Assembly: GCF_024713975.1 (NCBI RefSeq)
Contig: NC_091108.1
Coordinates: 6,935,001-6,999,000, forward strand
Length of the DNA stretch: 64,000 nt
DNA from: Paralichthys olivaceus
Taxonomy: Eukaryota > Chordata > Actinopteri > Pleuronectiformes > Paralichthyidae
Direction of reading: 5' to 3'
Shown: piece after piece, positions 29,215 through 63,057 of the stretch
Numbering within the stretch: the first letter of the stretch is position 1
How the letters are laid out: each line of letters opens with the position of its first letter
Translations under genes and position numbers: made by a program
Notes under the pieces: generated by a model
What the model was told of the DNA's origin: nothing
What the model saw: the letters and a program-made list of their open reading frames with translations, nothing else
The model's database searches: none

Positions 29215-32200
29215 TTAAGGAGAACACAGCTTCAACACTGAACCTAATCCCACCCAAAATCCTGGGTACACCGGCTGAGTGAATGTAGTTTTCACTTTGT
29301 GAAGTAACACCATCGTTTCAGACACATTGTAGAAAGACAAAGTCCCAGCTCGGAGGTCCAGATACACTCCGATCCTGCTGCCGCAGAGAGCCCCGATGGT
29401 CGCGCTCTCCTTATTGTGCTGAAATGAACAGACGGAGTTGGAGCAGTCCAGACTCCAGGATTTGGAGTTGTGCCCCAGCTTGCTGTCGCTCCCTCCTCCA
29501 CTTCTACTCATGTTCTTGTAGCAGACGCCGATGGAAACCCCTCCCTTCCCAACCCACTCCACCTCCCAGTAGCAGCGTCCGGCCATACCGGCTCTGCACA
29601 GCACCTGGGCCCAGTTGGTGAAGCGGTCCGGGTGGTCGGGGTAAGGCTGCGGCTCCAAACGTGTGGTCACCACTCTCCGACCATCAGAGAAGTTTAGATA
29701 AGGATTGGCTGTGTTTGGATCCAGGGTTAAATCATTGTAATCTGGACAGAGGAGAAAAGAAGAATACATTTAGTCCTGGGTAAATTTATATTCAAAAGTT
29801 TAATGTATGTGTCAACAATATGTTCAATAATTTCAGAAGCAAATCAATAATTGCACTCACATTGTAGGAAATCATCTCTCGTCTTCGGTTCTGAGTTGAA
29901 CTGAACTGAATTTTTTGCTGTTGGAGATCAGAGTTATACATGGAATTACTGAATAACTTATTTGACCATAAAAAGTAAAAGGCATGTACCTTTAGTCTTC
30001 TCAGAGGTGCTTTGATTGCTGGTTTCCTTCAGTGAAATCACTAAATGCAAAGAAAAAAATTAATTAATTTGATCATTTCTGAAAACAATTCTGATTTTAT
30101 GTTTGTTGAGAAAAAGACGTACCTTTCTCAGAGATTTTTTGGAATTCTTTTTCGAGTGTTTCAGCCAGACTGTCCTTCAGATCAGCCAGGGCTCCTTTCG
30201 TGGTTTTGTACATTAAATATTGAAGTGCATCAGTTCTGGGCATCTCCACCGTCTTTGTAGGGAAATGAAAAGACTTGGAGCTCTGCAGTCACAACAAATT
30301 ATTATCGAAATTATTGTTTGTTATTATCGTTTATCACGCTACTGCACAGACAATGTCTATTTCACTACTGCAGTCATACACTCTAGCCTTAAGAGTTGTG
30401 TGTTCTTGAAAGTTCAAATTTTATCTTAGATTCTTAAATTTATTGATAAAATTTTCTCTGTATTATCTGAATGCAAAATTTAAAAAAAAGATTTTCTCTG
30501 ATTTAGTTTGTTTCTTCTCAAAATACCAACTTTTTTTAAACATTGACTTTATTCTCGATACACAAAGTAAATAAAGTAATAATAATTCTTAAAGATGCTG
30601 TTACAATAATCAAAGTTTCAGGAAATAAACTTGGACAAGCCTCTGCTTTAGTTCTACCTGAAGGAAGTGGACGTGATCCTCAGAGCGACAGAGCTTCTCC
30701 AGCTCGGCGTCAGTCCTCCTCAGCTCCACTATCTCCCTCTGCAACTTCTCCAGCAGCTCCTCAGCCTGACTGACAGCAGCTCTCTCCTGGACACGGATCA
30801 GCTCCTTCACCTCGCTGCCTTGTTTCTCTATGGAGCGGATCAGCCTGGAGAAAATCCTCTCGCTCTCATCCACTGCTGCCTCTGTGGAGTGCTGCGGAGG
30901 ATCAACTGATTAATCTGTTTGGTCTCCAGGAGTCACACAGACCACACTCTGTAAATTCTACAGTTTGTCCACACAGTTAAATCTACACACTCACCTTAAT
31001 GTATCCGATTATATATCGAAGTTCTTTCTCCGTGTCCTTCAATTTCTGCACAGACTTCGAACAGGTTTCTTGGAGTTTTTTCTAAGAGAATACAGAAGAT
31101 AAATATCAATCAGTGCTGCTCGCTCAAATATACTTTTCACGCTTCACCTTCAAGATGGACTCTTGATTTTACAACCACAGCTTTGGATCGTAGCAGGGCT
31201 CATTTCACTGTGTTTAATGTTTGAAATGCTGAAGCTTTAGATTGTCCATAGATTAATAAATTAAAGGTCTGTTGAGTCGGCTGTTACCTATCAACAGATT
31301 ATGAATAAATTGATCAATCTATCTTTTTAATCCAGCAAAATTTAGGTTTAGCCAGGTTTTATTTAGAGATTCATTTCCAGCTAATTAGTGGAGGTGACTC
31401 AAAAAATACTGCGGAGGTGAAGGAGGGAAGAGACACGAGTTATAGAATATACTTACCGTACAAACACCAGTGTGGTTGTGCAGTGCAATCTCTGTCTACA
31501 TACATTCTTTCCCCGATTCATATATATATATATATTCATGTCACTGTGACCTTTGACCATTTAAATCTAAGCAGTTCATTCATTAATCCAAGTAAATGTC
31601 AGTGACGAATTTGAAAGCGTTTGCTTGAAGTGATATAACATCACAAAGTGAAACGTGTTTCAGAGGTGACAGGGACCCATTGACCTTCGACCCCCACGCA
31701 CCAAACTCCAATCAATACATCTGAGTCTGAGTGAATGCTCCCTGAATCCAATTATGATCAATATACTGACTTTGACATGTCATCATCAGAGGAATGACTA
31801 GAATAAAGTGAATACTCATCGTAGTTGTAGTATAAATATAACTGACTGTGTTTAGAAATATATTTTACAGAGTGTTCATACACACCTGTTGTGCTGATCT
31901 CTCCTCTGCCACTGAGACTGTGTCGTGGCCCTTGTGTCTCTCCTTCAGGCACTGAGTGCACACACTGTGTTGGTCAGTGCGACAGTACAGCCTCAGTGAT
32001 TTGTCGTGCTGCGGACACATCTTCTCTCTCAGCTGATCTGAAGCTGGGAGCAGTTTATGAGTCTTTCCATGAAAGCGCTCTTCGTGGACTCTCAAGTGAG
32101 CCACACAGTACGACTGCATACAAACCAGGCAGGATTTCACAGCTTTGCTCTTTCTCCCAGTACAAACGCTGCATTTCACTTCATCCGGTTTGACCAAGGT

Positions 32201-32470
32201 TTGGGCTGAAGCTTTCAGTCCGCTGCGCTGAAACTGTTCCACCACTTCACCCAGAACCGTGTTTCTACTCAGCAGAGGTCTGGGATTAAACACCTGCCGG
32301 CACTGAGGGCAGCTGTACTGGCCTTTCTGCTTGGTCCTGTTCCAATAATCCTCGATACAGTCCAGACAATAGCTGTGTCCACAGGGGATCGTCACCGGGT
32401 CTCTCAAAACCTCCAGGCACACTGAACAACAAAACTGGTCCTGTTCTATAGAAATAGTTGCTGCTGCCAT
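29215..32470 (-). CDS. finTRIM-type E3 ubiquitin ligase (RING, B-box, coiled coil, B30.2/SPRY)
   Basis: Exons: 32470-31886, 31081-30995, 30891-30658, 30282-30123, 30040-29990, 29905-29861 and 29741-29215; they sum to 1689 bases in one frame, 562 residues. RING zinc ligands run C15, C18, C30, H32, C35, C38, C54, C57. A first B-box (about 101-140) and a second (about 150-186, CPQHD...CRTD...HKGHD) follow. Coiled coil covers about 196-302, and a C-terminal B30.2 domain starts near 388 (LDPNTANPYLNFSDGRRVV; CYWEVEW). The 234-base exon is the size I recall for finTRIM genes. These fish proteins act as E3 ligases and are often virus- or interferon-induced. The B30.2 domain should decide target binding. 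The specific ftr number cannot be assigned. Confidence 0.92.
31535..31740 (+). repeat. Dispersed repeat C fragment
   Basis: Phrases 'tcactgtgacctttgacca' and 'ccattgaccttcgaccccc' match a common fish repeat, also present at 52.7-52.95 kb. It lies in intron 1 of the finTRIM gene. Confidence 0.4.
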
Positions 32471-33071: not shown

Positions 33072-33318
33072 CTAAAGGTTCAGCGAGGAAGATTTGTGTG
33101 AGAGGGATTTATTAGCAGAATTTGAACATAAAATAGTGAAGTTTTCACTAGTGTATGATCAACTAAAATGTACGAATTGTTGTTTTCTTTAGCTGAGAAT
33201 GGGCCCTTTATATTTAAATACTTTATATTTACATCGGGAGGGTGAGGTAAGGGGTGTTCAGCTGCAACATGCAACTTCACCACTAGATGTCACTAAATTC
33301 CACACACTGAACCTTTAA
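33072..33318 (+). mobile_element. TTAA-type miniature inverted-repeat element, copy 3 (shortened)
   Basis: The element spans 33076-33314. The right flank is TTAA and the left flank CTAA, one base off. It starts AGGTTCAGCGAGG and ends CACACACTGAACCT. It matches copies 1 and 2 but lacks about 110-150 bases of their middle. It lies between the two TRIM genes. Confidence 0.7.
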
Positions 33319-33501
33319 TACAACAAGGTAGATGTCTGTGCGGTTTTCAGCAGCACTTCCTTCCTCTTCGCTTTCCCACCTGCACTTAAAGCAGGTTGAA
33401 GGTACAGCTGACTGGTGAAAACTAAAAGACTTAACGAGGGGAAAGGGAGAAGAGATCAGTCAAGTCCAGCGGCGTTCAGGCCGCGAAATACTGATAGAAG
33501 T

Positions 33502-40899: not shown

Positions 40900-41681
40900 T
40901 CACTTGTTCTTCTCCTCCAGTCCGCTCTCTGCTCTCAGGGCCTGGCTGCTGGCTGTAATGAAGCTGATCCAGTGTTTGAGGTCCTCTGGAAACTCGGGAC
41001 ACTCGATCTGCACACACACACACACACAAACAAACACACCCAAACAAACACAAACAAAACTTTTATGAAGCCCTACTCTCCATTTTGAAAACTTCTGTAA
41101 AAGACCAACAAAACTATTTAATAAAGAAAAAGATTGTTAGTTGCAGGACTACAGCTTTACTGATAAATACCATTACTCACCTTCCTTTTGCATACAAATT
41201 CTATAATGCTCTCTGGGCTGCAGCGCACCACATTCTGCCTGCAGAGCATGATTGCAGATACAAAGCCATCTTTCTTGGACACAAAGCGCTGCTCCAAGTA
41301 AAAGGCCTTCTCGTCCCATCCCACTACTTTGGTCCGAATCTCAAAAGCCTCACGGAAGGCCAATGAGCGCCGGTATCGGATGGTGGAAGCCCCTACCACC
41401 ATTTTGGCCCCCATCCTGCATGAGGCCATGAACAGCCCGTTTCGCATGTAATGGTGAAAGCGAGCAAAGTCACACTCCCTCAGGTATCGAGAGTTGTTCA
41501 TGTGGCCCATGTAGTCCAAGTCATGGGGAAGGACCATGCCATCGATGCTTTGCTCTGCTAGAATGTCCCATATTCTGGGCTGGAACCACGACTGGACAAA
41601 GACCTGGACCCCGCGCAGGAAGTACCATACATCCAGAGTACAGAAGAGCAGGAGGAGGGCTCCCAACACCAGCAGCAACAT
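40900..41681 (-). CDS. them6: THEM6-like hotdog-fold protein, copy A
   Basis: Two coding exons (41681-41181 and 41007-40900) give 202 residues, about the length of human THEM6. Residues 1-22 form a hydrophobic N-terminal segment ([20 protein letters not shown]), suggesting a signal anchor or secretion. The hotdog thioesterase-like fold follows, with the family motif [20 protein letters not shown] near residue 54, then [20 protein letters not shown], and the C-terminal HWISF...[12 protein letters not shown] signature. THEM6 is usually listed as an inactive or uncharacterised thioesterase-superfamily member, reported in the endoplasmic reticulum. A non-coding 5' exon ends at a donor at 42885/42884, and the acceptor AG lies 4 bases before the ATG. 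Confidence 0.93.
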
Positions 41682-42884
41682 CTCTCTGAAACAATAGAGA
41701 TATACACTATAAACTGCACTTAGGTCAAAATATACACTTTGAGTAGGTGCATTCAACAAATCAAGGAAAAGTTCCTCCAGTTAAACTTATCATTGCTCAT
41801 AGAGCGATAGAAGAATAGTTAAAAGAGGATTAAAGGTTGTGAATCACATTAGGATTTAAAAAATTCTAAATCTGATAATATTACATTAACGTTGTCATTT
41901 TTTATACTGGTTATATGTGTGTTGACACAGAGTCAACAGCACAAGGAAGTGATGGAACGAAAGGACAGAGCAGCTCTGAAGTGCAATTAGAGCGATAATT
42001 AAACAAAGTAAAGAGAGCTTAACACAACAAAGACAAGTACAATACTATAGAACGACCTACACTGGAGGATGCAAGTTCACGATCATACTGAACATATGAA
42101 AGCCAGTAAGAAAAAGTAGGTTTGCTGAACTGCACTAAACACAGAGGCATGTATGTGGAGGAAACGTTCCCCACTGCCTTTACTTAACTCATTCACAGAT
42201 TTTGATATTATCTTGCACTGTAGTGGAATTTTGAATCAACCGTTTAACTTTTTCTGGACATGTTGTGCATCTTTCTAGTCCTTTTCTGTCTCTTCATGTT
42301 CTGTAGCCTCTCTTTAGTCATTTGCATCCTTCTGTAGTTATTAAGCATGTGTGTGTCTCTCTGTGGTTGTATTACAACCTACATCTTTATGTGTCACTAC
42401 AACTGAGGCCTATCTATCAGTAATCCATCCATTATGTTAATTCCATGTTTATCTTACGCAGATCACGTTACATCCCCTTGTCGTTATCCTAAACAAACTT
42501 TACTTTGCCTTATCATAGTAACTCCTCACTCAGAGCAGTGTTTCTAAATTCACGACTAAAATATTAAATACAATTATCAATGATAATGTAAATAAGAGTA
42601 AAAACACGAGGTTTCACTCCAAAACATAATCTTATGGGTAAAAACCCGGAAGCATCCGACTTGCATGATAACTCACTTCAACCTTGAGGACTGTGGAGCT
42701 AACGCTGCTCCAGTCAACCTGCTGTCACAGACAAATCTGCTAGCTTAGCCGCTAGCTGCGGGCGGACTGTGGCCTCGGTGAAACGCAGACCACGTCCGGG
42801 TTCAGCTCTTGTTCTACCGATGTGTGCTTTCAGGCTGTGAACGCGGAGACTCGGACGCGTGTCTCTGAGGTGGCAGAAACCTAC

Positions 42885-44198: not shown

Positions 44199-44902
44199 TT
44201 ATTTGTTCTTCTCCTCTAGTCCGCTCTCTGCCCTGAGGGCCTGGCTGCTGGCTGAGATGAAGTTGACCCAGTGTTGAAGGTCCTCTGGAAACTCAGGGCA
44301 CTCCACCTGCAAAGAGCAAATGACCTTCAGTGAGCAAAGGATTTATTAAAACCTTAACAGTGTTTAATTTGTATTTGTATTGAGGCCTGCTCTCCTACCT
44401 TTCTTTTGCAAAGATGCTGCATGATCTTGTCCGGGCTGCAGCGGATCACACTCTGCTTGCAGTACATGACGGCACACACCAGGCCGTCTTTTGTTGAAAC
44501 AAATCGCTGCTCCAGGAAAAAGGCTTTGTCATCCCAAGTCACGATCCGACTCCGCAGCTCGTAGCCCTCACCTATACACAGAGCTCTTCGGTAACGAATG
44601 GTGGTGGCCCCCACCACCATCGAAGCTCTGAGGGCTCGCACGGCCTTGAACACGCCGTTGCGTGTGTAGAGAGAGAAGCGGGCGAAATCGCACTCGCGGA
44701 GGTAACGAGCATTGTTCATGTGGCACATGTCGATGTCATGGGGAGTGACCCGGCCTGTCAGGACCTGCTCTGCTGTGACGTCCCAGACCGGAGGCTGGAA
44801 CCAGGCCCGGGCCACCGTTGCCGCCACTCGTAGGAAGTACCACACATCCAGGCTGCAGAAGAGAGCCAGCAAGGCGCCGAGCACCCACAGCAGCCACCAC
44901 AT
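44199..44902 (-). CDS. them6: THEM6-like hotdog-fold protein, copy B
   Basis: Two coding exons (44902-44399 and 44306-44199) give 203 residues with the same exon junction as copy A, so this is a tandem duplicate. The N-terminal hydrophobic segment is [20 protein letters not shown]. The family motif reads [19 protein letters not shown], one residue shorter before HMNN than copy A and than the human form as I recall it. The end matches copy A ([10 protein letters not shown]...[13 protein letters not shown]). It is more GC-rich at third positions than copy A. An acceptor lies 4 bases before the ATG; a non-coding 5' exon likely ends at 46553. Confidence 0.93.
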
Positions 44903-44959
44903 CTCTCTAGAAAGGACATAAACAAGCAGAGGGAGCAATGGGGTCACTGTGATGTGTGA

Positions 44960-46540
44960 GACCAACATCTTTTATGTGTAACTCTCATGATATTCCATCC
45001 TATTGATGAGTGTTGCTGCAGCCTCAGCTCACTTAAAGCTGTCATAAACAAACCAGTGTGAAGTGGAACACCTTCCTTCAATATGGAGGACATGGGCACT
45101 GACAGACATATTGGTGTCAGTGTTTATGCCTTTATGTGCTGATATGAAAACTTATTTTGAAGAATAAATAATGCAGAAATATTCATATTACATTTAAAAA
45201 AATTCTAATTCAAGTTTTTTGTATTTGTATTTGTGTTTTCAAGGGTTTGATAATGACATATTAAGAGTTATTGCCAATTTATAAAAAAGATACATCATAT
45301 ATTAAAGATATGTTGGTAGATATTTATGCATTGGAAATGTATTACATTGTTGGCATTGCCAACCAAAAATCCATATTGGTCTGGTACTATTTACTCCTTT
45401 GAGTGACGTTTGTGAAAAACCTACGCCCTGCTTTTTTTTTTCCTTTAAAGGAAATTAATATTTGAGTTTTGTGTTTTTTAGTTGAAACCAATGGGCCTGA
45501 GGCTTTTTTGTCAACAGTCACAATAAAATATTAAGGATAAAATCTGCTTCATCATCAGAAGTTAAGCTTAGGCAAATATATGACATTAACCAAAGCCAGT
45601 AAATGTCAATATATTTGTAAAGCATTTTTAAAAAGATAAAATTATAATGCTCTTGATATTATCTTATATTAATGTCAGTGTGGACAGCTGCATGGTTTTG
45701 GTTAATTTGCTCCGTGTTTTCTTAACTGGCAGCTGGAAGAAAATATATCTGGGGAGCAGGTTCCCTAGTTGGAAAAAAATAATATCATCAATCAAAAAGA
45801 AATTACCACCTCAAACTCCTTCTCCTCTTTCAAATCTCTCTTATATACTCATTATATAGCTTTTATTTCTCTCTAACTCTCTTATAGAAACTTCTTTTTA
45901 TCTGTTTCTGTGCTCTATTGCTGTGTGATCTTCACTTTGCCTTTAAATGGTTTCTTATTTTGGATTTTCAAATTGTAAATAACCTTGTAACTGTCTTTTG
46001 AACGGTGCTATACAAAAATGTGTTGTTAATATTATTAAACTCACATATATCAGCTTTAATTCAACTTATGAGACAGTGGTAGCAGTTTGTAGTCCAAAAC
46101 CAGTGATACATTTGTATGCAGGTGTATTTTAGTTTTGTGTATTGTGTAAGTCAGTATTTCTGCCAAAAGTAAGAAGTAGTGTTGAAGCACTTTAAGCTGC
46201 AGTGTGAATCCTGTGTGTTCATGTGGAGCTGATTCTTTCAAACATGAAGTGAAACTACAAACAAATCAATGACTCTTCAGGATCAGTGCTGTAAACACAT
46301 GTGAAGGTGTAAACAGGTTCTACAGGAAAATCAGGAACTGGTGAAAACTCTGTGAAAACTGGTTGAACCTCTGAACAAAGCTTCAGAGTTAAACAACAAC
46401 TCAAATGTCTTAAACCAGAAGCGAAGCCTGAGCTCATGTCAGGTCGGAAGTGAAGTTACCTGCTGAGGCAGCAGTTTTATCTCAGACTTTACGCAACTGA
46501 CGTAAACAAACGGCAATAATACGAGTAAATGATTGAATCC
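44960..46540. other. 5' intron of THEM6-like copy B
   Basis: AT-rich intron sequence; nothing else recognised. Confidence 0.4.
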
Positions 46541-47936: not shown

Positions 47937-50900
47937 TCACTGAATTTGACGAGATCGATGATCCATCACCATTTTCTTCATGTTCCAGTCGGCTGCTAGG
48001 TGGTTAAGATCAAGGTTGTGTCCTGGGCCAGCTGTCGGGTCATACTGGTGTCTGCAAGAGTGTATACAATGAACTGTGAAATTACAGTACATGGCAACGT
48101 GGCAGATGAGATCGATAGCTGAGATTTATTGTGGGAGATGGAAGTTATGTAGTTTTATGTTTAAAAACGCAAAAAGCAATGGTGTTGTTAAAGCAGTAGC
48201 AGCAGTAGCTAACATTTCATTCGAATATCACTCAGTAGAGGGCATTCCTCCGCCAAGGCAGATCAATTCTACACAAGTCTAGTTTGTATGAAGAATGGAG
48301 CAGCACATGTTCCGGCTCAGACACAGTCACAAGAGCAAAATCTCTGGAGCGGAGTACACGACACCTCGTTTTCTTCCTGATATATTTGTATTATTTTGTT
48401 TTGCATCTATTGCGTGTTTGAAACAGCCCACTTGCACGCTGTAAATTCTATGAGCAATATCCTGCTGTATTTCACATGGGCTCACTCAGACATTCTCCAG
48501 AGGTTTTACCAGGGGGCTGGCATGGAAAACAAACACATCCAAACCAATAAACACACATTTAACAACATTGGTGCAGGTAACTATTTCCATCAGTAGTAAA
48601 TGAACTCACTGTTTGAGGTGTCCCTCGATGGCTTTGCGTTCATACACGGTGCCGTACACCGTTTTCACTGGATCAACAAACATCTTTTTGGTGAGTGGAC
48701 AGATTAGATGTTGGGGTATAAACTGCTGCACATGATCCACCAATTCCTTTAAAATAAAATAAAGAGACAAGACACATTCAAGAGACGGACACCACATATG
48801 TTGATTTTATATAAAAAGTTTGAATCCACCACAACTTTAAATATGTTAGTTCACTCACCTTCTCCATTTCATCCAGTGACTTTCCTGCAGTTTGCTCAGT
48901 GTGTTTATTCGCTTCCAGCATGTACTTCTCACGGTTTGTCAGGAACTCCTCAGCCAAAATGCTTCAAAAAGAAGTTCAATATCACATCAGATACTTCAAA
49001 TCTCTGAGTTAAGTTTATTAATATGCATAACTCACCTGTCCAGTGGGTCATCAGGCTCAGGGATGATGAGCAGTCCATACACAGCATCAAAGATGTCTCT
49101 CATGGTAATGTGAGCATTGTAGCTGCGGTCAAAAATGCTGTGGCAGATGCGGCCCACACTGTTGATGTTGCAGTGGTACACCTGTAATCCTGTTAAGGAA
49201 ATCTTGCAAGCAAAACGTGTACAGTATATACAAGACGAAGAAATATTTAGGATAATAAGTTAAAAATAACACAGTTGACTCTTGATATAACTGGAAACCA
49301 TGTTGGGATTACACTAGCCATGACGCCAGTAACATGCTGATGATCTGTCTTCTAGGTACTCCAGAGTCATCACTATAACTTATCACAGATCACAGATACT
49401 TAGTTGTTACAACATTATTTCATGACTTGACGCAGAAACACTAATCTTCTTTGGCTTTCATTTTGATATTAACCACACACCAGTGGAGTTTACTAAAGTA
49501 ACTGTATCTGTCACAGTTGTGACTTTGAGCAGCTGCTTTGGCAGCCTGTCATAACTTTTTAGTTGTTTTTAGTTGTGTTTTGGCAGGATACTTGTGTGAC
49601 AAAGCGAACAAGTGGAGGCTTCACTGGGTATTCAGGACCAAACTGGCAGTATAGCTCAAACACTCCTTTCTCATAGGGCGTGTCGGGAGGGCCCTGCATG
49701 AGAATCCTCCAGAATGCTGAAGAGATTAAAAATAAAAATATAGAAAAAGACTGCATTTTACTTTGGAATCACAGGCGGTCCCTTCATGACTTTATCAACT
49801 GAACATTATCCTGTTCAGCAGCATTAGACAGCGCCACCTACTGAAGTCTGACTCTGATGTGAAGACTCTGAAGAAGGGATGAGGGTCACAGTGCAGGCTC
49901 TTCAGCTCCTCCAGGAGACGTCTGTCCTTTTCCATGAAGCGTCCATCCTTCGCCTCCAGAAGCTTCTTTTTCAGAGCACTATTTTGATGAGATAATGCTT
50001 CAATCTAACACTCTTATCTTAAAAGGTCTTCCATCATTGTTAATGTTAACATTTCACAAGGGTCAGATGACCCTGTTGGGCTGTGGGGTGTGAAATACTT
50101 TGGTTTACCGTATGTCTGCAAACAATCAACAAAAACTATATGTGTTTGCGTAAGTTTGATACTTAATCATTTGATTTCACTTAAAAATATAAATGTTAAT
50201 TTAATCTCACCTCTCTGTCCCGCTCACTTTGTTGCTTAACTGGGTTGGCAAGGATGTATCTGGATACCTATCATATCCGTTAGTTGCAAAGATACCTGTT
50301 AAATCACGCTATAAAGGGGAATAACAGGTATAAAATCAAAGATTACACGATGAAACATTTTATGGTTGATTTGATTTAATTTAGAGTATTTTCATAATGC
50401 CACTGACCTCACTGATAGATGATGCGTCAAGTTTTTTCTTGGGTTTCCTCTGCTCCAAAGACAGGACTGTTTCGATCTCAAAGAGCTTCAAACCCTCTTT
50501 GATTGTCTGTGGATTGAAACAGCAGCCACCTGGAAGCAAAATGCATGTGTGGTATAAAGATGACGTAAATATCTGAGTGTTAAAGTTAGGGAAAGCAGCG
50601 GTTTAGAAAATGTGACTTTTGGATATTGTTACCTTCACTGAGGAGTTGATGACCGTCTGTCAAAAACTATTATCCATGAAATTTTGTGGATGGGTGGAGC
50701 ATGAACCCTTTAAATTTGGGAGTGGATCCAGACAAATGGGTGGATTCACTCACATGTCCAAATCACACTAAATTCATCAGTGGAAGCTCACTGATGAATT
50801 TAGTGTGATATCAGGCCCTCAAGAATACACATGCCAAGCATGAAGCTGATAGTATGAACGATTCTGGAGATATGTGAGCCACAGGCAGACAGATCTTTGG

Positions 50901-53900
50901 AATTTATAGATAGATCCGCTTACTACACTCAAGTATGAAAGCATACCTGTTGCATTGCTGATTCCATGCAGCATATTGTTCTTTACATTTCCAAGAAGGA
51001 TTGAATCCACAATGATGTTTGAGTTTAACAGCCTGGCTGTAACTGCAACTGGCTCTATTGAGGATCTGTGGGAAGGTGAAAACGTTTAGATTAGGACCTC
51101 ATCTGCCCCCAAATGACAAACAACACTTTGTAGTTGACAGAGTATGAAAGACAATACAACTAACAGATGAAAAACAGCTTTACTTAATGTTATTCTGTAA
51201 AATACGTGTGTATTAGAATGGTTGATCCTAACCCCCTAACCATTTAGAGAATTGATTGAGATAGATGATAAACACTGAGGGATTACAGAATCAACCATCG
51301 CATTTACAAATTAGCATGAGTCAATGTCTGCTCAACTAAAGGTATGCTAAGCATTTCATATTTATTTTTGTAGTTATATGTAAAGGTGGTAGTGTAGCAC
51401 ATAGAATGGAAATTTACCCAGAATCATTTCCATCAGTGAGGCACATGATGCGAAGTCGACAATCTGGAAACGTCTTTTTGACCTTTTCCAACTCACACGA
51501 CCCACGTCGTAGGGCATCATACAGCAGAGTGCATCCATTCGGTTGAAGGATACGGATGTACTCCTACAAATGAAAAGAAAAATCTTAATCTTTGAACATT
51601 TGTTACTAGGTGGATAACAACATTAAAAATTAGATGCAACTGTTCTCAGAAAGAACCCTCCTTGGCTCAGTTTGATTCTTTACCTTGAACTTTTCCAGAT
51701 TTTCAGTAAATGTGTGATGAGTTTTCACCATTGAGTCAAACGTCACCAGACCAATGACATGATGGAAATCATAAGCCATGCTTCTTGATGCAAAGTTGTC
51801 AAAGAGCTCCTTCACAGCATTAATTTTCCTTATCCCTGCATTTACATAGCACTCTTCTTCCATGGATGAGCTTGTATCTATCAGGACCTGATGAAAATAA
51901 AAAACATTTAGAAAAATATTTAGCTGTTTCAGATCTAGATACTTCAGCATGCATGTACATTGTTTATATACTCAGTGGTGTAGGGAACTAATACCAACAG
52001 ACCAGAAAGGATGATCACATGCAACTACAACTGTTGCACACCACAACGTCTACCAACAGATTTGCTCACTTGTAAAAATGTTTTCTGGTCTTGTGGGTGC
52101 TCCGTTTCACACAACATGAAAAATTACATCAAAATGCTGACCATCGAGGTGAGAAGTGCTGATTCTTATATTTATTTATTTTTTTTACACTCAAGTTTTA
52201 CAAAATAAATGATGTACTCAAAATAGCAAGGATGACTATGGGAGTTTGCAAAATGAGACACAGCTAAAACTAAAATATCAAATATAAAAGAACCTTTACA
52301 GATTCACATATTTTTTATTGTTTCAAGTGAATTTGGACTTTTCTCTGTACATGCTTTAAAGTGTGTTTTCTAAATGTAGGAGTGTCATCTAATTTAAGAC
52401 TTAGCAAGGCAATGATATACCAGTATGGCTTCCTTTGGAGTCCTAGTTGTGACAAATGATCCATCTTCTCTATAGTCACCAGTCCTGTGAAAAAAGTTAA
52501 ATTATGTTTATTATCTCTTATTTTTCTGTTTAGTTTGTCATTTTCATAAAAGAGAGAAAGAAATACTAATACTTTGGATGAGAGTTGATTTAAATATAAT
52601 AAATGAAGTGGTGTGAAAGATTGTTGAAACTGCACTCTATAAGTGAAATGGAAATTCATGTTGTATTACCTTAAAGGACTAGAATTACCACACTGCGGTT
52701 GTATGCCTGCAGTTTCTGTGTATATATTTGTACGTACTTTTTATATAAAGGTCACAGTAACCTTTACCTTTGACCACTGAAACATAATCACTTTATGTTT
52801 GAGACCAAGTGACAACTGATCAAAGTTGAAGAAATTCCCTCAAAGCATTCTTGAGATATTGAATTTTTTGTATGGACGGACAGACGGCCCACCTGAAAAC
52901 ATAATGCCTTCGGCCACTGGCTATCGCCGGTACGGAGGCATAAGAACAGGCATAAAAATCCCAAAATTGACTTTGTTTTATATTGTATGCATACTGATTT
53001 AATTATGGTTGTTTTTATACACGCTGTAGGGTTCAGGTGCTCACTTGGCCGCCAGTACATTCACATCCACTTCAGTGCTCGTGCCATCCAGACAGTTGTG
53101 CACCCTGATCATATCTGTCGATCCTTTGCTTTTATACAGATAAACACCAAGGTTATCTGCAAAGAGACAAATTCACCAAGAAGCAATCACGAACATGAAA
53201 CCATAAAGACAAAAATGCTTTCTGAAACATGCTAAAGGGATGGTGATACAGACTGATTTAATCGAGTACCTTCACTCAGCAGAACAAGGCAGGCGTCATT
53301 CTCTCCAAGCTTCTTCAGATGTAGAGGTGGGGTCACGTTGAGATGAGGGAAAGATTTCAATCTTTCAACCATTTTTCCAAAAGTCTGTTCATGGACCTGA
53401 AAGCTGTCATGTGATTGCTTATTGTAGACATTTAAGGATGAAGTAACCATATGTCTTTACCAAAACATTTGTTAAATGTATTTTAAAAACAAAGCACTGC
53501 AATACTTAGCTAAAGCTTTTAAGTTGGTATTTATATTTCTTTATAAAAATTCAACAGTATAATTTAATGCGAAGGAAAGAGTTGATGGTACATACTTCTG
53601 ACCAGTTATCTTGTCATGATTGATCCAGAGAGGATAGGTCTTAATGAATGGAGGCAAGCTGAGCAAGATTTTCTCAATGTCAGTGGCTCTCTGTAATGAA
53701 GTCTCTCCCAAAATCTTTTCTGTGCAGTTTGGAATTTTCACCCCATCTAAAAAGAAGACAGAATATGAAACTGTGCAAAGTCCATGCCAAACTATTCCAG
53801 AGGCAGCTGTGATCACAGCTCACAACCTCATATCCAGACATCTGTGATTCATTTTCTTATTTATGTACAAACTTACTGCAGTTAGAAAAGTTTGGTGGTA

Positions 53901-56900
53901 TTATTATTATAATATTACCTTTCACTGATTTCAATGTTTTCACCCTGGTCTGTTTGATGGCAGAACGAATACACATAAACTACTGAGCCGATTTCCACAA
54001 GACTTAATGAAAAGATGTGGCATGGGCCAAGAAAGAACCATTAAATGATGGCACTTGACTGTTTTCCATTTTTTATTTTCACCAGTTCCCCAGGGAATGA
54101 TTACATCTTTAATATATTGATGGAAAACAAAAAGGGGGACTGATATCAATTAGTGTGTACAATTTTGTGTGGCTTGATTTGTTTGTTCTAGTTTTACCTT
54201 TGATATTCTGGAGAACGTTTGCTCGTTCAAAGGCACCAGGCACTCCAGGCACTCTCACCGGTTCACAGAAACGTCCGTTGTCTTGAGATGTGAGAGTGAT
54301 TGGTGCGTAGTTCTCAAAGTCTGATTTCTGTTTCTATTCAAATAGGACAAAACATTAGGGATTACCTGGGAATCAGATTTAAGACACATTGATAAATATA
54401 TTCAAGTACAGAAACAACCAAAAGCTCACATTTATCTCAACCTCCACGATTGTGTTTGCAGATATTGATTTCTACACAAAATGTATAAAGTTGAATTTGA
54501 AATTACAGAAGCCCAGTTAACTCGAACCCTAAAATCATCATACCTTTGCTCTGGAGATGAGATGTGCCCAGCAGCACAATGAATTCTCAAAGACATCGAT
54601 GTCCTTGATGACTTTCTCCCCTCGTTCTGAGCCAAGTTGGGGCAAAAGCTCTCTGAAGAGAATGTACAAGCCTTCAACTACTGAAATCTGCAAGTATGTG
54701 TGAGGAAATTAGGATTACATAAAAAAATAATGGGTAGTTATTGACTTTAGAGGTACAAAACCAAGTAGAGTTTAGCTAAAACTATACCACCTCATATTGT
54801 TTACCTTTTGATTCCATGTCATTGTTTCATTCCTGCTGAGCAACTGATGCAAACTTTGGGCAAGAGGGTTACATCCAGTCAGTTTTCGTATGTAGCCAAC
54901 CAATTTATTTTGTATTTCTGAATGATGCTTCTTCTAAAAGAAAAAAAACAAACAGATGCACTTAAAAACATGGTAAAGAACACTGAAGGAGGAACCTAAA
55001 CAATTAACCATCTTAATTGTTAGATAAGCTAACCTTTCAGATTAGTTTAAATTCATTTCAGGCAAGGGCACCGTGACAGATCTAGAGCAACTCCCTGAGC
55101 TGATTATCAGCTGTTTTTATGGACTATTCAGGGGCAGCCAATAGCCTAGTTGTAGAAGGAGGGGTGTGTGTCAAATGCCGATTATCAACATCCATCCTGA
55201 GTGATCCGATTCGCAAGCAGTTAGTGGTAAGTACAGGTCTGAACACACACGTCCTGAATGAGTCCCAAGATCTGGTCACTTAGACCACATTTGGAGGTTG
55301 TCTGGTGGCTGGTCTGGTGGCTGGTCTGGTGGCTGACATACAGACACATCTGTATCCACAAAATCATTTGCTCTTCGTGAACACAGATGACGTACTTGTG
55401 AGTTCTTACGTAATGCTGTCGACTTGTGATCAGATCTCTCAGGATGGATGTTTATACCAATACTAAAGTAAAGAGGGTCATGAGATATATAACAATATAA
55501 GATCAACACTGCTTACAACAATGTAAAGCGAGGACAGGAACACACTCATTCCTTTCTGGGTTTGTTGGACTGAAGGCACAACATCATCAATGAAGAAAGA
55601 CTCTTGGGATGGACTGTTATCATCATCTGTGTATAAAGAGAAGGCAACTGTTGACCTCTCAGAGATTCCATAGCTTTCCAGTGTGTTACATCCGTGGCGT
55701 TGACCTCTGCAAGTAAAATAAGCACACCAGAGAACAGAGGCAGTGCGTGAGTGCCAAGGACTACAAGAAAAGAAAAGGACACTTCAGTGGTTACGGAGAT
55801 CATTCTGTATTACTTGTAATGAAGGACATGTGCTGGAATTCCACTTGCATTTGCCAACTTGAGTTTAAGAATGGTTATGGTGTCGTTTTTTAAGTTCACC
55901 ATCACGTCGAAGTCTCCCTAAACAAGACAACAAAACATTTTAAAAATACAGATTCATCTTCATTCAATTTATAAAGTCTGAGTTAAAAAAGAACGGCAAC
56001 GCTGCCATTTTTTAACCCTCATGAGAGACATCAACATCCTGAACCCTGAGTTCAAGTGAATTTTAAATTTATTTTTTCTTAACAATTAAGTTTTTGATAT
56101 TTGCTTGGTTTGTCACCTAGGACATTTGCTTTTCTCAGGCACCAGTCTATTTAGTAGCAGCAGTTATAACCTTAAACTAAGCTACAGTTAGACTTTGAGT
56201 TGTCTAGTGCTTCGATTTCTTTAAGGATATCAGTTAATATTACTTGTATCACAACCAAGACACACCTTGAGCATGATGTGGCATCGGATAACATCCTCTC
56301 CTGGTGTATCCACACACTCGGCTTTGAGCGTTTGAGGAGCATATGTAAGGTTTTCCTCTGGTGTAAAAATGGCATAGATTACATCTCCATTTTGAATGTA
56401 TCTCTCTTTCAGAGACCCTGTAAGAAGAGACAATAAAAATATAAGATGTTCTTGCACTGAAGCACATTTAAAAAAAACATTAGCAGAGCTATCAGTTTAC
56501 TTTTAAAGAGTTATATTCGCTATCATGATGAGTTTTCTTGTGGTCTGCACTGTGGTTCTACTCTTTTGATCCCAAATGACATAAAAAGACATCAGCTGTA
56601 TGATCACTGTATGCAGCTTCCACACTGTATGTGTGTGAACAGAACATAATAAAAAGTTTTCAAATTGCTCAAATAAAAGAAACTGTAAACGCTCTGCTCA
56701 CATGTGTTGAAGAAAGGATCGTCTGTCAAGGGCATCCCGTCAATTGTGTAGAGACAGACTCCTGTAGAGCGTCCCACGTTTTCAAGGAGACAGATCCTCA
56801 ACATCAGATCTTTAACAGTGTTTTGAGTTGGATCCAGATCTGAAGAAAAAAACAGACAAATAAACCAGACTCCTCATTTGTGCTTCTTTTATGTAGCCTA

Positions 56901-58861
56901 TTCAGGGCTAGGGTTGGAAATAGCTCTCAGCTCAGAATCACAAAACACTTGTAAGTAAGCTGCGCCTATACTGTAAATAAGTAAATGGAATTACAGAAAT
57001 GAATGTTAAAATGTTAAAAATGCATTACAAGGTTTGTTTCTCTTACCTGTAATACGTTTTGGTTGAGGACATTTAGGGTACTTGTACTGCAGGAAGAATG
57101 CCTTCCTTGATTTTTTCACAGTTGCCAGAGTTTGAACTTCGCACTTTGTAGCTTGGGGTCTTTGAATGGAGTTTTTCAATGCCACAAAACGATTCTTTTC
57201 CACACGACTTAAACCTGTAAAAAAAAAGAGAGAGAGAAAATGCCCCCCCCCCCGTCTCTCAAAAAGTCTTACAAGTGAATTTATCTTACACAGCTGTCTA
57301 TCTCCTTTTTACATTTCCAACTGTGTTTTCTTTCCTTGTTTTAGCCGTATACATGTCAGCTACATAAGTCTATTGCTGCAGCCAACCAACCATTATTGTG
57401 AGCATGAGGTTTGCCCAAAGTGCAGTGGTAATTATTATTAATATCATATTGCCCAGCACAGGAAGATACAGGGGGTTTATATAGCGTCAATAAAATAATT
57501 TAGCTCTAAATGATTGTGTTTACTTATTTCTGCACAGCCCCCGAAATATATACCTTCTATTGTGTACATATATCACAACGACATAATTCAGTGTAGTTGT
57601 AGAATTGCCAGTAAATTACAAATTAGGACAAAAAATAAAATTTTAGCTGAGGTTATTTTCCATTGACTGGTGACAACATAGTTTTAACTGTTTTTCAGTG
57701 CTTGTATGATGAAGTCAGATGAGTACTTAAGTGTTCCAGGAGGCTCCAGTTCACTTTTCAGGTTAGGTAGGTTTGCATATTTTCAATCGTCTGGCAACTT
57801 GAATTTTCTAACAAAGCATTATATGAAACTGAAAACTTTTCAGCACTCTTACCTAAGTTATGGAGATCTTCATCCGTCACACTATCCAGGAAATCTCTCT
57901 CATCTTTTACACCATGCTGAAGAAACTGAATGTGATATGACTCAAGCCTGTACTCCTTAAGTAGGTTGAATATTTTACCCACCTAAACAAAGACATTAGG
58001 AGAATTGATTTAATGGATGATGGGGCAAATCCACAATTTTCTTTGTGATAATTCCTACTCTATCAGAACTAGTTATTCAGCTACCAAGTGACAAATTAAA
58101 TGTGCTTGAATAAGATAATAAAAAAAGGATTTTGACTCTATAAGCATAACTTTAGATCACCCTTTTAAAAGAACATCGTATTTTTTTTCCTAATCATTTA
58201 AAGAGACACGATCTGATCACAACAGCTGTGATCACTTAATTTCTGTTGACTCATTCTCTTTGAGGGCAGGGTTATAAGAAAACGAAACCTATCAGAGTGA
58301 AACCTAAAAGAAATGTGTCAATTCTGAATTTTAAGAAACGTTCAAACACACCTCTTGTTTTCTTTTCTCATCTGCCTCCAACACAGCCTCTTTCTCAGCT
58401 GATGGGCACATCTTCTCTCTCAGCTGATCTGAAGCTGGGAGCAGTTTATGAGTCTTTCCATGAAAGCGCTCTTCGTGGACTCTCAAGTGAGCCACACAGT
58501 AAGACTGCATACAAACCAGGCAGGATTTCACAGCTTTGCTCTTTCTCCCCGTACAAACGCTGCATTTCACTTCATCCGGTTTGACCAAGGTTTGGGCTGA
58601 AGCTTTCAGTCCGCTGCGCTGAAACTGTTCCACCACTTCACCCAGAACCGTGTTTCTACTCAGCAGAGGTCTGGGATTAAACACCTGCCGGCACTGAGGG
58701 CAGCTGTACTGGCCTTTCTGCTTGCTCGTGTTCCAATAATCCTCGATACAGTCCAGACAATAGCTGTGTCCACAGGGGATCGTCACCGGGTCTCTCAAAA
58801 CCTCCAGGCACACTGAACAACAAAACTGGTTGTGTTCAACAGAAATCATTGCTGCTGCCAT
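47937..58861 (-). CDS. RING/B-box1 - SAM - two Ubl - vWA - E2 (UBC) - U-box fusion protein
   Basis: Twenty-six exons: 58861-58352, 57982-57853, 57214-57047, 56839-56702, 56417-56266, 55917-55814, 55706-55517, 54933-54805, 54687-54544, 54471-54430, 54333-54198, 53746-53596, 53403-53270, 53156-53045, 52484-52421, 51887-51684, 51563-51418, 51065-50947, 50529-50408, 50308-50211, 49978-49842, 49716-49592, 49181-49036, 48961-48859, 48746-48610, 48051-47937. They sum to 3756 bases in one frame, 1251 residues. Seen: RING ligands C15...C57; B-box1 about 101-140; SAM 171-230; a weak ubiquitin-like fold about 258-345 and a clear one about 367-430 (TITILKLKLANASGIPAHVL); vWA from about 765 with metal-site DTSSSM at 772 and later TDGND; UBC about 1000-1135 with GRIC (C1098); U-box about 1175-1245 (HLICPLTKKMFVDPV). 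Such modules make an E2 and two E3 types in one chain. Exon 1 derives from the adjacent finTRIM gene; exons 2-26 could also be a separate gene. Function unknown. Confidence 0.82.
50625..50900 (-). repeat. Repeat A-like fragment containing a perfect hairpin
   Basis: Diverged repeat phrases ('attttgtggatgggtgg', 'tggatccagacaaatgg') surround a perfect 21-base inverted repeat: arms 50762-50782 and 50789-50809 with a 6-base loop. It is in an intron of the fusion gene. Confidence 0.55.
52685..52950 (+). repeat. Dispersed repeat C
   Basis: Contains 'gtaacctttacctttgacca' and 'ggacggacagacggcccacc', then 'gccggtacggaggcataag'. This is the phrasing of a common fish repeat. It is intronic. Confidence 0.55.
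53936..54170 (+). repeat. Dispersed repeat A, plus orientation
   Basis: Shows 'gagccgatttccacaagac', 'aaaagatgtggcatgggcc' and 'accattaaatgatggc', related to the copies at 11, 15 and 34 kb. It is in an intron of the fusion gene. Confidence 0.55.
55305..55335. repeat. Short tandem repeat, 11-base unit
   Basis: About three copies of TCTGGTGGCTGG-like units in intron 7 of the fusion gene. Confidence 0.6.
58278..58289 (+). promoter_or_regulatory. Interferon-response-like element in intron 1 of the fusion gene
   Basis: GAAAACGAAACC fits the GAAANNGAAA core bound by interferon regulatory factors. A second GTGAAACC lies 9 bases further on. It is about 63 bases after the exon 1 donor, outside the block copied from the finTRIM gene. 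A match of this size can arise by chance. Confidence 0.35.
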
Positions 58862-59000
58862 TTCCTCCACACTCCAACAGAAACTGGTAGGGATGAAGTT
58901 GGGCTAGATTTCAGGGGAAATTGATCTCAGCCTCTCAGGTTTCATCTGCTGCACGCTGACACCACCAATCCCGGCCTGCACACAAGGAAATGGGCCGTCC
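58862..59000 (-). promoter_or_regulatory. 5' flank shared with the finTRIM gene
   Basis: The upstream flank (for example CCTGAGAGGCTG on the minus strand) aligns with that of the finTRIM gene (32471-32610), at lower identity than the exon itself. So the duplication carried the promoter-proximal part along with exon 1. Confidence 0.55.
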
Positions 59001-59925
59001 CAGATATTGCTTAAAAAATTCCCTCAATGACTAAGTGAGCACTGTGTCCTGAGTAATTCTTCCATCTGTGACTGCACACAGTACTAAATAACATTGGTAA
59101 ACCAAGACATTACCTTTATCTAAACACTAAGTTCAGAAAGATCTGTCTGTCTGCATGTGGCTCACACACCTGCAGGATCATTCACAGGAGGTTAGTGCAG
59201 CGTTAAATTTGGATACATTTGAATAAACAGGCAGCGGCTGGGACTGTTGTTGAACTTTGTGCATCAGCGATGATGTGGCTTCAGGGTTGTCTACAGAGTC
59301 AGCCCATTCCAAACAGGTATGTTTAGAAAGGGCAATACACACGTATAATAAATCATAATGTCTGGTATTTAACAGCATGACTATACACACAAAAAAAATT
59401 TCAGATACAGAAGAGACGGTGCAGAAACAGAGAGAGAGAGCCATATACAGCTTTTTCTCCAAGAGAGAGTAATAATTAACTTTTGTATGACCTCAGCTCA
59501 ATATATTAAAACTAACTATAATCCACTGGAGAGGAGAGTGGATTTATAAGATTAATTATTGGTGTATTGATATAGATTAGTGGTTTAGGACTGGACAAGC
59601 ACTGTTGCTTCCCTCTACTCCTTTTAAGACATAATTAGTTCATTTATATTTCTCATCGAAAGTCTGTTTATTATTCATTTTTGTTTCGTTCTTTCTACAT
59701 TCATATTTAATGATAAACAAATCAAATCTATAATTAATCACTAACCACACACATCCCTGTGCTAACAGTAACATGCTACCACAGTGGAATTAGCATCCAA
59801 ACGATTTTCCAAACTTATTTAAGTATCTTTTAAAAGCTTTTTAAGGAAAAAGAGCTTCCATAATTGTTTTCACAGATGAGCACACTGACCTTGGGACTTC
59901 TCCCTGCAGACATTTAATGTCAACG
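59001..59925. other. Non-coding DNA upstream of the fusion gene
   Basis: AT-rich; no exon supported. Confidence 0.4.
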
Positions 59926-59929
59926 CTAC

Positions 59930-60320
59930 AGACTAGCACGGTTTAACATAGCTAGCTTTGCTAACTGTGTCGGCTAGCTTAGCTCAAACTAGCCTGAGAC
60001 ACTTAGACCCATGATTAAAACTAAGACAAGATGGCGGCAAAGTAAATTCACTGACTAATCGGGAAAGTCACTTTGAGATCAGTCAGGAGACTTTGGAACA
60101 AAGATGGCGACAGTGGACGTGACAGGACTTACATCAACATCTGCACAACTGCTGTTCAAAACAGAATCACGGTTTCAATGTGAACTTGTTCTCGCTGTCA
60201 TCCACCAAACACAGGGAGCTGTGTAATGGCGTCGCTGAGGAGAATCTCCCTCGTGACAGATTTCAGTTCAGTTAACACTTCCTGGATCCTCTTCACACCA
60301 AACACCATTGTTGTTATTGT
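59930..60320. promoter_or_regulatory. Promoter-like block with YY1-type sites and two overlapping small ORFs
   Basis: AAGATGGCGGC at 60028-60038 and AAGATGGCGAC at 60101-60111 match the YY1 site found just after many start sites. On the plus strand, the ATG inside the second site (60104) opens a 40-codon frame. On the minus strand an ATG at 60310 opens a 38-codon frame ending at 60194, and a strong GTTGAT|GTAAGT donor follows at 60133. The minus-strand part could be an alternative 5' exon of the fusion gene (its pre-fusion promoter). Neither small frame is recognised. Confidence 0.35.
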
Positions 60321-60369
60321 GACGATGTACAAAAGATGTATGTAATAATAAATACAATGTAAAAAATAA

Positions 60370-61185
60370 AATAAGGCTATATATATATATATATAAACAA
60401 ACTCATACATACCCAAAATAAAATATTAACTAATTTGCATTGTTATTTTTAGCAAAAAGGCAGGAAGATAAATTCTCATATTTGGAATATTTAATTTATT
60501 TCTATATTTTTTAATTATTAATCTAACTGACCTGTTTTTGTTATTTGATTGATATGTATAAAGATTGATTTTGTGTTGTAACAATGGACTGTATTGTCTG
60601 CTCATGGCTCTATTCACCCCACATTTGACTTCTATTTGATAAAACATGCTCCGTCAGTGACTTCAGACAGACAGTGAAACCTGAATAAACAATGTTGAAG
60701 CAAGACTCCATAAAGGTTTTAATTGAGTTGATCAACATTTTATTTTTTATTGGACCACACTTCACACATGTATAACCCCAGTGACAGTTATTATCTATGT
60801 CTACACTTTCAGTATAATTGCCTCTGATGAAGCATTGACAACCGGCCGTGTGTACAAACGACATTTGGACATGTAGGAAAAGAACACCTTGTTAGTTACA
60901 CCTGTGGTTTTCCTACCGTCATGTTCAAATATTTCTTGTGAAACAGTATTTTTGGACTTTTCCCTTTTTCAAATACTTGGACACAACAATTACAAGAAAT
61001 GAAATGACTGCTCTTTGCCCAAAACACAAGTTTCCAATTCATGTCTGATAGAAAAACTCTAAAAACCAGGTACAACGGAGAAAATATTGAATTTCTTTTT
61101 CTCCACTTACACCAAGTATGCAACTCAACATCAACACATCATGTTTCACAACACCAAACACTTTCTATTTGGTCTGGGCCTGACT
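60370..61185 (-). other. Probable 3' UTR of the right-edge gene and AT-rich flank
   Basis: Minus-strand AATAAA signals occur about 450 bases after the stop codon (TTTATT near 60740 and 60748 on the plus strand). There is a short alternating AT run at about 60379-60394. No exon is seen. Confidence 0.4.
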
Positions 61186-63057
61186 TCATGTTGACACTCT
61201 TGAAGGAGGAACTGGCTGGTAAAAGCTGTTGATAACCCCCGGCTCTGTCTGTGTCTCCTGGACACTCGCTGGTTGACTTGTGGCACCTCTGAGTGGTATT
61301 TTGGGGAAAGTAAAGACTTTTCCCTCTAACTGTACGGACGCCGGCTGAATGGCTGCTCTGATCTTTCTTTGTTCACAATTGCTTCCTGAATGACTGGAGG
61401 AGTGAGCTGTCAAACAGTGGTTACTAAGGCATTGCTGGTAGGTGATTGCCTTCTCAAGATTACTATCGATTCGACTGTTGCTCTGTCTGTCACTGTTTCT
61501 TGCAAGACAGCTCCCAGTTTCAGACATGACTGAAGAATGAAAACTCCCAGAAGTCCTCTTCCTTCTCTCTTCATCATCTGCTTGCACTACCCCACCTCCA
61601 CAGGTACTTTTCCTTGGCCCGTTTTGTGTCTCTGTTTTCCCCAATGTTGACCCAGCATAGTCAGTCCTACTGTTGCAGTAACTGCCTGCATCACTTACAG
61701 GGCTGAGTGCTGGAATGTGTGAGGGGGTAACACTGATGTTTCTGGGGCTGCTTTTCCTCTCCCTCTGTGGTAAATCATCTTCTCTGCTCAGGCTGCCATG
61801 GGATGAAAGTTTGGCTTCATGGACAGGTGAGTCGCTCTCAGCTTTTATTTGGAAACTAGGACTAGAAGTCGGGGGCCTGCAGTGGACACCAGCACTGTGT
61901 TGCCATAGAGATTGGTGGTGATCGCTCTTAATCGTCTGCCTGGAAGTAGTGAGTTTGGGGCAGATAGGTGGCCTGCTTGACATATTAGATGCTAATGTGT
62001 GTCCATGAGTCCTGGATGCAGAAGTCTTAGCGGGAGGAGGTCCGGCTGGTGGCCTGGGCTGGCACAGAGGAGGAGGTGGATGTGGTCTTGGGACCGATGC
62101 AGAGTAAAAAGCTTGTAGAGTCTCATCAGAGGCCTTTCGTTCTGTTGACCGTCTGGAGGAGAGGAATCAGAATGCAAATTAGACTTAATTTGTTTGGGCT
62201 GATGAACCCGGCCTTTTCCAGACTTTCATTCTAATTTAGTTTTAGATGACAGTCCATTGTGTGGTTGGCCTGCATGGCTTCCCCTCTTTTTAATTTCATT
62301 TGAATTAATTATGAGATTGTATTACTTTTTTTTTTTTAACTGCTTTTTCTCTATTCTATACGATTATATGAATAATGTTATCGTCCTCTAAGAAGATCTG
62401 CACTTTGAAAATCAGCTAGAAACCATTTTAAGATGCCTTTTCATGGACTTGTTTGATTGTATCTCCTGGACAATATTTTATTTATCATATTTATGTAAAA
62501 TATTAGACCGTCTCCTTGTGGCTTTGGTCAAAGACTATGTAACCATGTTAAGAGAGGTGCTTAACAACAAAACTTACAAACCTGAACCTGGTTTTCATTT
62601 CCTTCACAGGGAGAGAGGGCGAGGCCGGGGATGAAGTGGCAAATGAAGAGGGGTAAAGCTCCAAGTCCATTTGTATTTCACCTCTTAACTCTCTCAACTC
62701 TGCACACACACAAACACAACAAATCTGAAAAAGCATGAAAATATTGAAACCATCTACTTCCATCCAAGTCTGGGGATTGATTACACTCTTGCTGTTTTAA
62801 CTAGGCTGCTGCCTCATGTCCTTAAATTACCTTTTATTGCATTTGACCCAATGAAGCTTCTGCAGATTTGAAACTGTGTTTTACCAGCTATGGCAGGAGG
62901 GTGGGTAAATCTATCAGCATTCATTTTTCATTTGTAAATGTACTGTCTACTGTGCCACCAGATGGCAGCAAACACCACAATGTCATTATCTGGACTCACC
63001 TGAGAGTGAAGGTTCTGATTTACCACTTTTACTCCTGCACTTTTGTTTAATATTTTT
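61186..63057 (-). CDS. C-terminal exons of an unrecognised proline/serine-rich protein (partial)
   Basis: Three exons join in frame: 63057-63000 (58 bases), 62699-62582 (118) and 62152-61186 (967, with the stop), giving 380 residues. The 5' part lies beyond the window or was not recognised. The sequence starts basic (KNIKQKCRSKSGKSEPSLS), passes through ELRELRGEIQMDLELYPSS and a proline stretch (PRPHPPPPLCQPRPPAGPPP), then is low-complexity and rich in S, R, Q and T, with a hydrophobic-basic patch KVFTFPKIPLRG near the end. It looks like the disordered tail of a larger scaffold or signalling protein. No catalytic domain is visible and no family is assigned. Confidence 0.65.

Follow-up and report, generated by a model that had tools for sequence, protein, structure and literature searches.

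The locus considered here lies on the minus strand of a 64,000-nt stretch of the Paralichthys olivaceus genome (contig NC_091108.1, forward-strand positions 6,935,001 to 6,999,000), which is referred to below as the window and whose numbering is used for all coordinates. Between positions 58861 and 47937, the window probably holds one large gene for an E2/E3 hybrid, with ubiquitin-conjugating (E2) and ubiquitin-ligase (E3) modules in a single chain, whose RING/B-box part would have been captured from a neighbouring TRIM gene. A first-pass annotation had joined 26 exons into one open frame of 3756 bases and 1251 residues, read as RING, SAM, two ubiquitin-like (Ubl) folds, vWA, E2 and U-box. When the exon model was rebuilt independently from splice signals in the genomic DNA, the same start and stop were obtained and the frame again proved to be single and open, although it consists of 25 exons separated by 24 GT-AG introns and amounts to 3714 nt including the stop codon, that is, 1237 aa with no internal stops. 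The additional exon is probably a 42-nt in-frame cassette within intron 9 (54471-54430; acceptor 8.0, donor 7.6, on scores derived from the gene's own splice sites), because its inclusion yields exactly 3756 nt and 1251 aa and places the catalytic cysteine at 1098, and because none of the other 14 cassettes of this length and phase listed for the gene's introns has both sites above 7. This cassette appears optional and may or may not be used. The earlier reading thus largely holds and can be regarded as partly confirmed, with the splicing of introns 1 and 19 being what we infer rather than observe. The gene and its TRIM neighbour comprise the following features:

58862..59004, minus strand: 5' flank of exon 1, a putative promoter/5' untranslated region, 78.0% identical (110/141 aligned sites) to the corresponding flank of the TRIM exon nearby
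58352..58861, minus strand: exon 1, RING plus a B-box-1-like zinc site (Pfam RING), TRIM-derived, with B-box 2 deleted in frame; phase-0 donor 8.5
58405..58829, minus strand: putative gene-conversion tract common to exon 1 and the TRIM exon, 98.8% identity (420/425)
57853..57982, minus strand: exon 2, start of the SAM segment (sub-threshold SAM_TNK and SAM_1), phase-0 acceptor, no in-frame ATG
57047..57214, minus strand: exon 3, remainder of the SAM segment and beginning of the first Ubl-like segment (exon model and Pfam search of the segment)
56266..56839, minus strand: exons 4-5, first Ubl-like segment (pattern only) and beginning of the second
55517..55917, minus strand: exons 6-7, second Ubl (Pfam ubiquitin 5.3e-4, below cut-off; 5vix 3.7e-4)
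52421..54933, minus strand: exons 8-14, middle region without an assigned fold or Pfam family; includes the optional cassette 54471-54430
50211..51887, minus strand: exons 15-19, vWA with metal-site motif (VWA_2 8.7e-10, VWA 3.5e-7)
48859..49978, minus strand: exons 20-23, E2 (UBC) with predicted catalytic Cys1084 (UQ_con 1.3e-33; best PDB E2 1.4e-27)
47937..48746, minus strand: exons 24-25, U-box and stop codon (Pfam U-box 4.6e-15; LubX 6.1e-7, CHIP 0.01)
31994..32470, minus strand: first exon of the neighbouring TRIM gene (RING, B-boxes), candidate source or conversion partner of exon 1, 93% protein identity

A Pfam search with the 1237-aa chain returned 20 rows up to an E value of 1, to which the curated (gathering) cut-offs were applied. 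Four families lie above these cut-offs, namely RING (residues 15-57, 7.5e-13), VWA_2 (residues 753-867, 8.7e-10, accompanied by VWA at 3.5e-7), UQ_con (residues 1004-1139, 1.3e-33) and U-box (residues 1164-1229, 4.6e-15), and such scores exclude a chance joining of unrelated open frames as the origin of the RING, VWA, UBC and U-box readings. The earlier claims of two E3-type modules in one open frame and of an E2 carrying its cysteine in that same frame (Cys1084, or Cys1098 if the cassette is included) are therefore borne out. The reading of the vWA domain as one with a metal site is likewise supported: the motifs DTSSS (758), GCTLLYDAL (832) and LTDGND (864) make up what we take to be a complete vWA metal site, and the segment has no PDB sequence match at E up to 1. 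The SAM and Ubl assignments fare less well. Searched as an isolated segment, the SAM stretch matches SAM_TNK (3.3e-4; 21.1 against a cut-off of 25 bits) and SAM_1 (7.3e-3; 17.1 against 23), both sub-threshold, and the best row for the SAM-Ubl stretch among PDB sequences is the SAM protein Caskin-2 (E 0.24). The second Ubl, also taken as an isolated segment, matches the Pfam ubiquitin family below cut-off (5.3e-4; 20.1 against 25.4 bits) and a polyubiquitin chain in the PDB (5vix, 3.7e-4), whereas the first Ubl matches no Pfam family and no PDB sequence and is pattern-based. No Pfam family was found for the 319-residue middle region, whose two PDB rows (E 0.22-0.24) correspond to chance level and which, inside a longer query, gave one NCBIfam row far below cut-off. 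Among the 20 Pfam rows there is no BIR domain of the kind that marks the BIRC6 family.

The E2 segment aligns with ubiquitin E2s in the PDB (best 4x57, 1.4e-27) and retains the catalytic Cys1084, the Asn of the HxN motif and the PDDPL segment. Its HxN motif has the HCN form (YHCNINS). Among the 8 further E2-like loci of the genome in which the segment aligned, 2 share this form and the remaining 6 have HPN; the two HCN loci presumably represent UBE2E. The YHCNINS motif is a likeness to E2s that we take to be of the UBE2E type, from which the present E2 differs in having a changed WSPAL loop and in other residues. The U-box starts 24 residues past the E2 stretch in the same frame, and the linkage between them rests on introns 23 and 24, with donor/acceptor scores of 10.4/9.8 and 5.2/8.7, respectively. 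Compared with PDB sequences, this U-box matches those of the E3 structures LubX (6.1e-7) and CHIP (0.01). At the sequence level, a UBC domain with its catalytic cysteine and an E3 module therefore stand in the same polypeptide.

The part of the gene that runs from SAM to the U-box, hereafter the body, occurs only once in the genome at the sensitivity of the searches described here. All 18 matches of an 813-aa SAM-to-vWA query in the 588-Mb, 25-contig genome assembly are exon pieces of this locus. With an E2-U-box query, 6 of 17 matches belong to it and the other 11 show 29 to 53% identity (36% for the two that score highest), for which reason a second genomic copy of the body was rejected. A scan of viral contigs with the E2-U-box query found no relative.

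Exon 1 has a different history. Judged by its matches, it is a TRIM first exon (RING, B-box 1 and TRIM 5' flank) with an origin separate from that of the body, a point missed by the first-pass annotation. The RING stands at the N-terminus, as in TRIM proteins, and the zinc residues of B-box 1 are present, although the Pfam score (15.8 against a cut-off of 27) is low, as it is for the neighbouring TRIM itself (19.7). Neither a TRIM coiled coil nor a B30.2 domain was found by Pfam in the 1237-aa chain. Searching the genome with the RING exon gave at least 151 TRIM-type matches (150 of 233 candidates were scored), and among the matches listed the best after exon 1 itself is the TRIM exon at 31994-32470, which lies 26 kb away and is 93% identical over 159 residues. 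At the DNA level, the two copies show four zones of identity: the 5' flank (78.0%, 110/141), the first 32 coding bases (81.2%, 26/32), a core (98.8%, 420/425) and a tail (54.7%, 29/53). The 44 differences over 601 sites are clustered, with a longest identical run of 174 that was reached in 0 of 10000 shuffles. Within the 425-nt core, 53 of 55 fourfold sites are identical, which argues against protein-level selection as the cause of the identity. A simple recent duplicate was rejected, as a fresh copy would be evenly similar, in contrast to a 98.8% core set between stretches of 78% and 55%. These zones and the clustering of the differences point instead to an old local duplication of the TRIM flank and exon, followed by a putative gene conversion that homogenized the core. 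The flank together with the first coding bases (81%), as well as the tail, matched only at the exon's own locus and at the TRIM at 32.5 kb among the 30 loci compared. A deletion of 75 nt, divisible by three and so without effect on the frame, has removed B-box 2 from exon 1, and the donor at the end of the exon's tail lines up with the presumed donor of the TRIM exon.

The window contains further TRIM-type sequence around the putative donor. Tandem TRIM-type exons extend over 29215-38340 on the minus strand and include a second RING exon, which resembles exon 1 most closely in DNA at 37961-38033. A PRY-SPRY exon at 29215-29769 is presumably part of the TRIM gene that has 31994-32470 as its first exon, and two minus-strand stretches that are 73% alike (30655-30852 and 35920-36117) look like coiled-coil exons. 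Interferon-response-like motifs (GAAANNGAAA, either strand) were found neither in 58862-61000, upstream of exon 1, nor in 32471-34600, upstream of the TRIM exon. Also upstream of exon 1, at 61186-62166 on the minus strand, lies a stop-to-stop open frame of 326 residues that matches no Pfam family and is perhaps an exon of another gene.

The reading of the locus as a single hybrid chain has several points against it, both at its two critical junctions and within its modules, and these are weighed here together with the rival explanations. Regarding the modules, the SAM and second Ubl segments fall below the curated cut-offs and the first Ubl is without a match. Regarding the first junction, exon 2 starts the SAM segment directly past its phase-0 acceptor without an in-frame ATG, and past the SAM start no Met occurs before residue 282 (exon 4); hence, some upstream exon is needed. 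Exon 1 could fill this role: it is open over 510 nt and would join exon 2 phase 0 to phase 0, and its donor (8.5) and the exon 2 acceptor (8.6) fall about midway among the leave-one-out scores of this gene's splice sites. Of eight phase-0 ATG-to-donor stretches with a donor of at least 7 in 57983-63000, four end at this very donor, and exon 1 is the longest candidate to pass that filter within 5 kb. Nevertheless, it is possible, if doubtful, that the SAM-Ubl-Ubl-vWA-E2-U-box body is real but has a short first exon of its own, in which case the RING exon would be a stray or separately transcribed TRIM fragment upstream. TRIM-type exons are numerous in the genome, exon 1 adjoins TRIM genes, and a compatible phase would arise by accident in one of three cases. 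Additionally, other candidates exist at 61042-60902, 59913-59890, 60922-60902 and 59181-59170, along with more that have weaker donors and are hidden by the filter, and intron 1 has three further AG sites that slightly outscore the exon 2 acceptor (8.8, 9.0 and 9.0 against 8.6). However, the four alternatives passing the filter measure 141, 24, 21 and 12 nt, and the start, frame and donor of exon 1 have been kept also outside the converted tract, where its tail has diverged to 55% and the 75-nt deletion is in frame. Nor does exon 1 seem to have other TRIM exons nearby to join: when 47-64 kb was compared with the rest of the window by blastn (E 1e-5), only RING exons matched and the remaining exons of the neighbouring TRIM genes had no copy there, at a threshold that diverged TRIM exons would escape. 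The case for exon 1 belonging to the SAM-to-U-box gene, as made from these signals, is good but not proof.

The second junction, between vWA and E2, depends on intron 19, whose splicing is required for VWA and U-box to share the chain in which Pfam places them here. Exon 20, the first of the E2, has both the poorest acceptor of the gene's 24 (49978, -2.9) and its poorest donor (-0.3), whereas an alternative acceptor at 50115 scores 9.4 and leads to a stop after 33 residues; an alternative donor at 50228 (9.0) matches it in phase. The stretch 50115-50014 (minus strand) may thus be an alternative terminal exon of the vWA part. On these grounds, two genes might have been merged, a SAM-Ubl-vWA protein ending in the exon from 50115 and a separate E2-U-box gene starting from Met999, which is about where free-standing E2 proteins begin. 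This division is improbable, as only 232 nt lie between exons 19 and 20, the single AATAAA/ATTAAA motif in 50210-49900 (at 50205) precedes the stop of the 50115 exon, and the Kozak context of Met999 has T at -3. Weak acceptors also occur at introns 11 (-1.8) and 21 (1.4), the latter inside the E2 fold, where splicing is required. Moreover, VWA and U-box are found on one chain elsewhere (PMC3087547). A different concern arises from the E2 itself. The WSPAL loop and the Phe before KPP are E2 residues that usually meet RING and U-box domains. In the present E2 a Val replaces the Phe and the loop reads YNAHI, where the best PDB match has WSPAL; the altered loop may weaken ordinary RING/U-box engagement and thereby counts against the hybrid as drawn. 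The chain could therefore be continuous while its E2 serves as a scaffold or ubiquitin-binding module and the RING and U-box use separate E2s, which we consider unlikely given that the catalytic Cys, the Asn of HxN and PDDPL are all retained. Across the genome's other E2-like loci, the loop is WSPAL in 4 of 5 aligned and WKAEL in 1 of 5, and of the 11 loci compared at the Phe position, 6 have Phe, 3 Met, 1 Ala and 1 Leu. Because both positions vary in this manner, their changes say little alone: they may reflect lost binding to E3s in general, a fit to the U-box on the same chain, a scaffold role or ordinary divergence.

If the locus is read as one hybrid gene, a working order of its modules can be proposed from domain content. 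The built-in E2 would be loaded with ubiquitin on Cys1084, and the U-box held beside it would stimulate ubiquitin discharge to a substrate or to the hybrid chain. The client might be chosen or positioned by the vWA, Ubl and middle regions, and copies of the protein could be linked into assemblies through their SAM domains. The first-pass annotation also suggested that conjugation might need no separate E2 and might be gated by the vWA domain. The N-terminal RING/B-box, captured together with its 5' flank from the TRIM, would constitute a second E3 module able to recruit a separate E2. In TRIM proteins, the RINGs are normally paired by the coiled coil, a task that SAM may have taken over here. 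Going further, the protein may tentatively be pictured as a self-sufficient conjugator with two E3 modules, in which the E2 loop has co-evolved with its own U-box, and a TRIM RING and promoter have been captured, the RING being renewed through gene conversion with the TRIM that donated it, thus tying the hybrid to TRIM-type innate immune regulation; this extended picture is more doubtful than the hybrid itself.

Should the gene be transcribed as drawn, E2 and E3 would be united in one natural chain, on which one could study how a conjugating enzyme functions when a ligase module is permanently attached to it and for what reason such a chain would have two of them. It would also represent a TRIM exon capture in which the ligase module gained a conjugating enzyme as its partner in place of a new binding domain, while the donor TRIM has stayed adjacent and apparently continues to exchange sequence with its copy.

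Other elements were observed along the same stretch. Intron 7 contains three perfect 12-base tandem repeats (55300-55335), and about 50 bases of intron 17 (50762-50809) are 92% identical to their own reverse complement and look like a small hairpin element. Downstream of the gene, 41157-41780 and 44354-44971 (minus strand) are two tandem genes whose DNA is 68% identical over 526 bases. The gene at 41157-41780 is thioesterase-like (4HBT_2), and we presume both to be THEM6-like.

In agreement with the first-pass annotation, which knew of no described protein with this domain order, no RING/E2/U-box or VWA/E2/U-box chain was found among the titles and abstract openings listed from the open-licence literature, although predicted orthologues may well exist under other names; as far as their accessible text goes, PMC4327156, PMC3503706, PMC2657112 and PMC11354881 describe no such chain either. 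Partial precedents are nonetheless available. UBE2O and BIRC6 are termed E2/E3 hybrid enzymes and combine a UBC domain and E3 function on a single chain (PMC13061254), as proposed here. The present protein differs in lacking a BIR domain among its Pfam rows, in having RING and U-box at opposite ends of the chain, and in the vWA, SAM-like and Ubl-like segments located between these two E3 modules. The combination of VWA with U-box in a single protein is known from Mb_UBOXa of the choanoflagellate Monosiga and from protozoan relatives, and was called absent from animals (Marin, 2010; PMC3087547); this likeness is by description, and the excerpt names no E2, SAM or RING for Mb_UBOXa. Animal proteins that bring SAM or RING together with a U-box on one chain include WDSUB1 (WD40-SAM-U-box) and UIP5/UBOX5 (U-box plus RING), for which the same excerpt does not describe an E2 or a vWA (PMC3087547). 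Finally, the capture of TRIM exons has parallels among fish TRIM genes with exchanged C-terminal exons (Boudinot, 2011; PMC3137616), such as ftr52 (RBCC-RanBD-CypA) and ftr06 (chromodomain). A cloned transcript of zebrafish ftr52 unites finTRIM exons with RanBD-CypA exons by proper splicing but carries a premature stop (PMC3137616). Similar to ftr52 and ftr06, TRIM N-terminal exons appear here to be joined to unrelated downstream exons; in contrast to them, only RING and B-box 1 have been kept, neither a coiled coil nor B30.2 turned up, and the downstream exons are those of a ubiquitin-conjugating gene.

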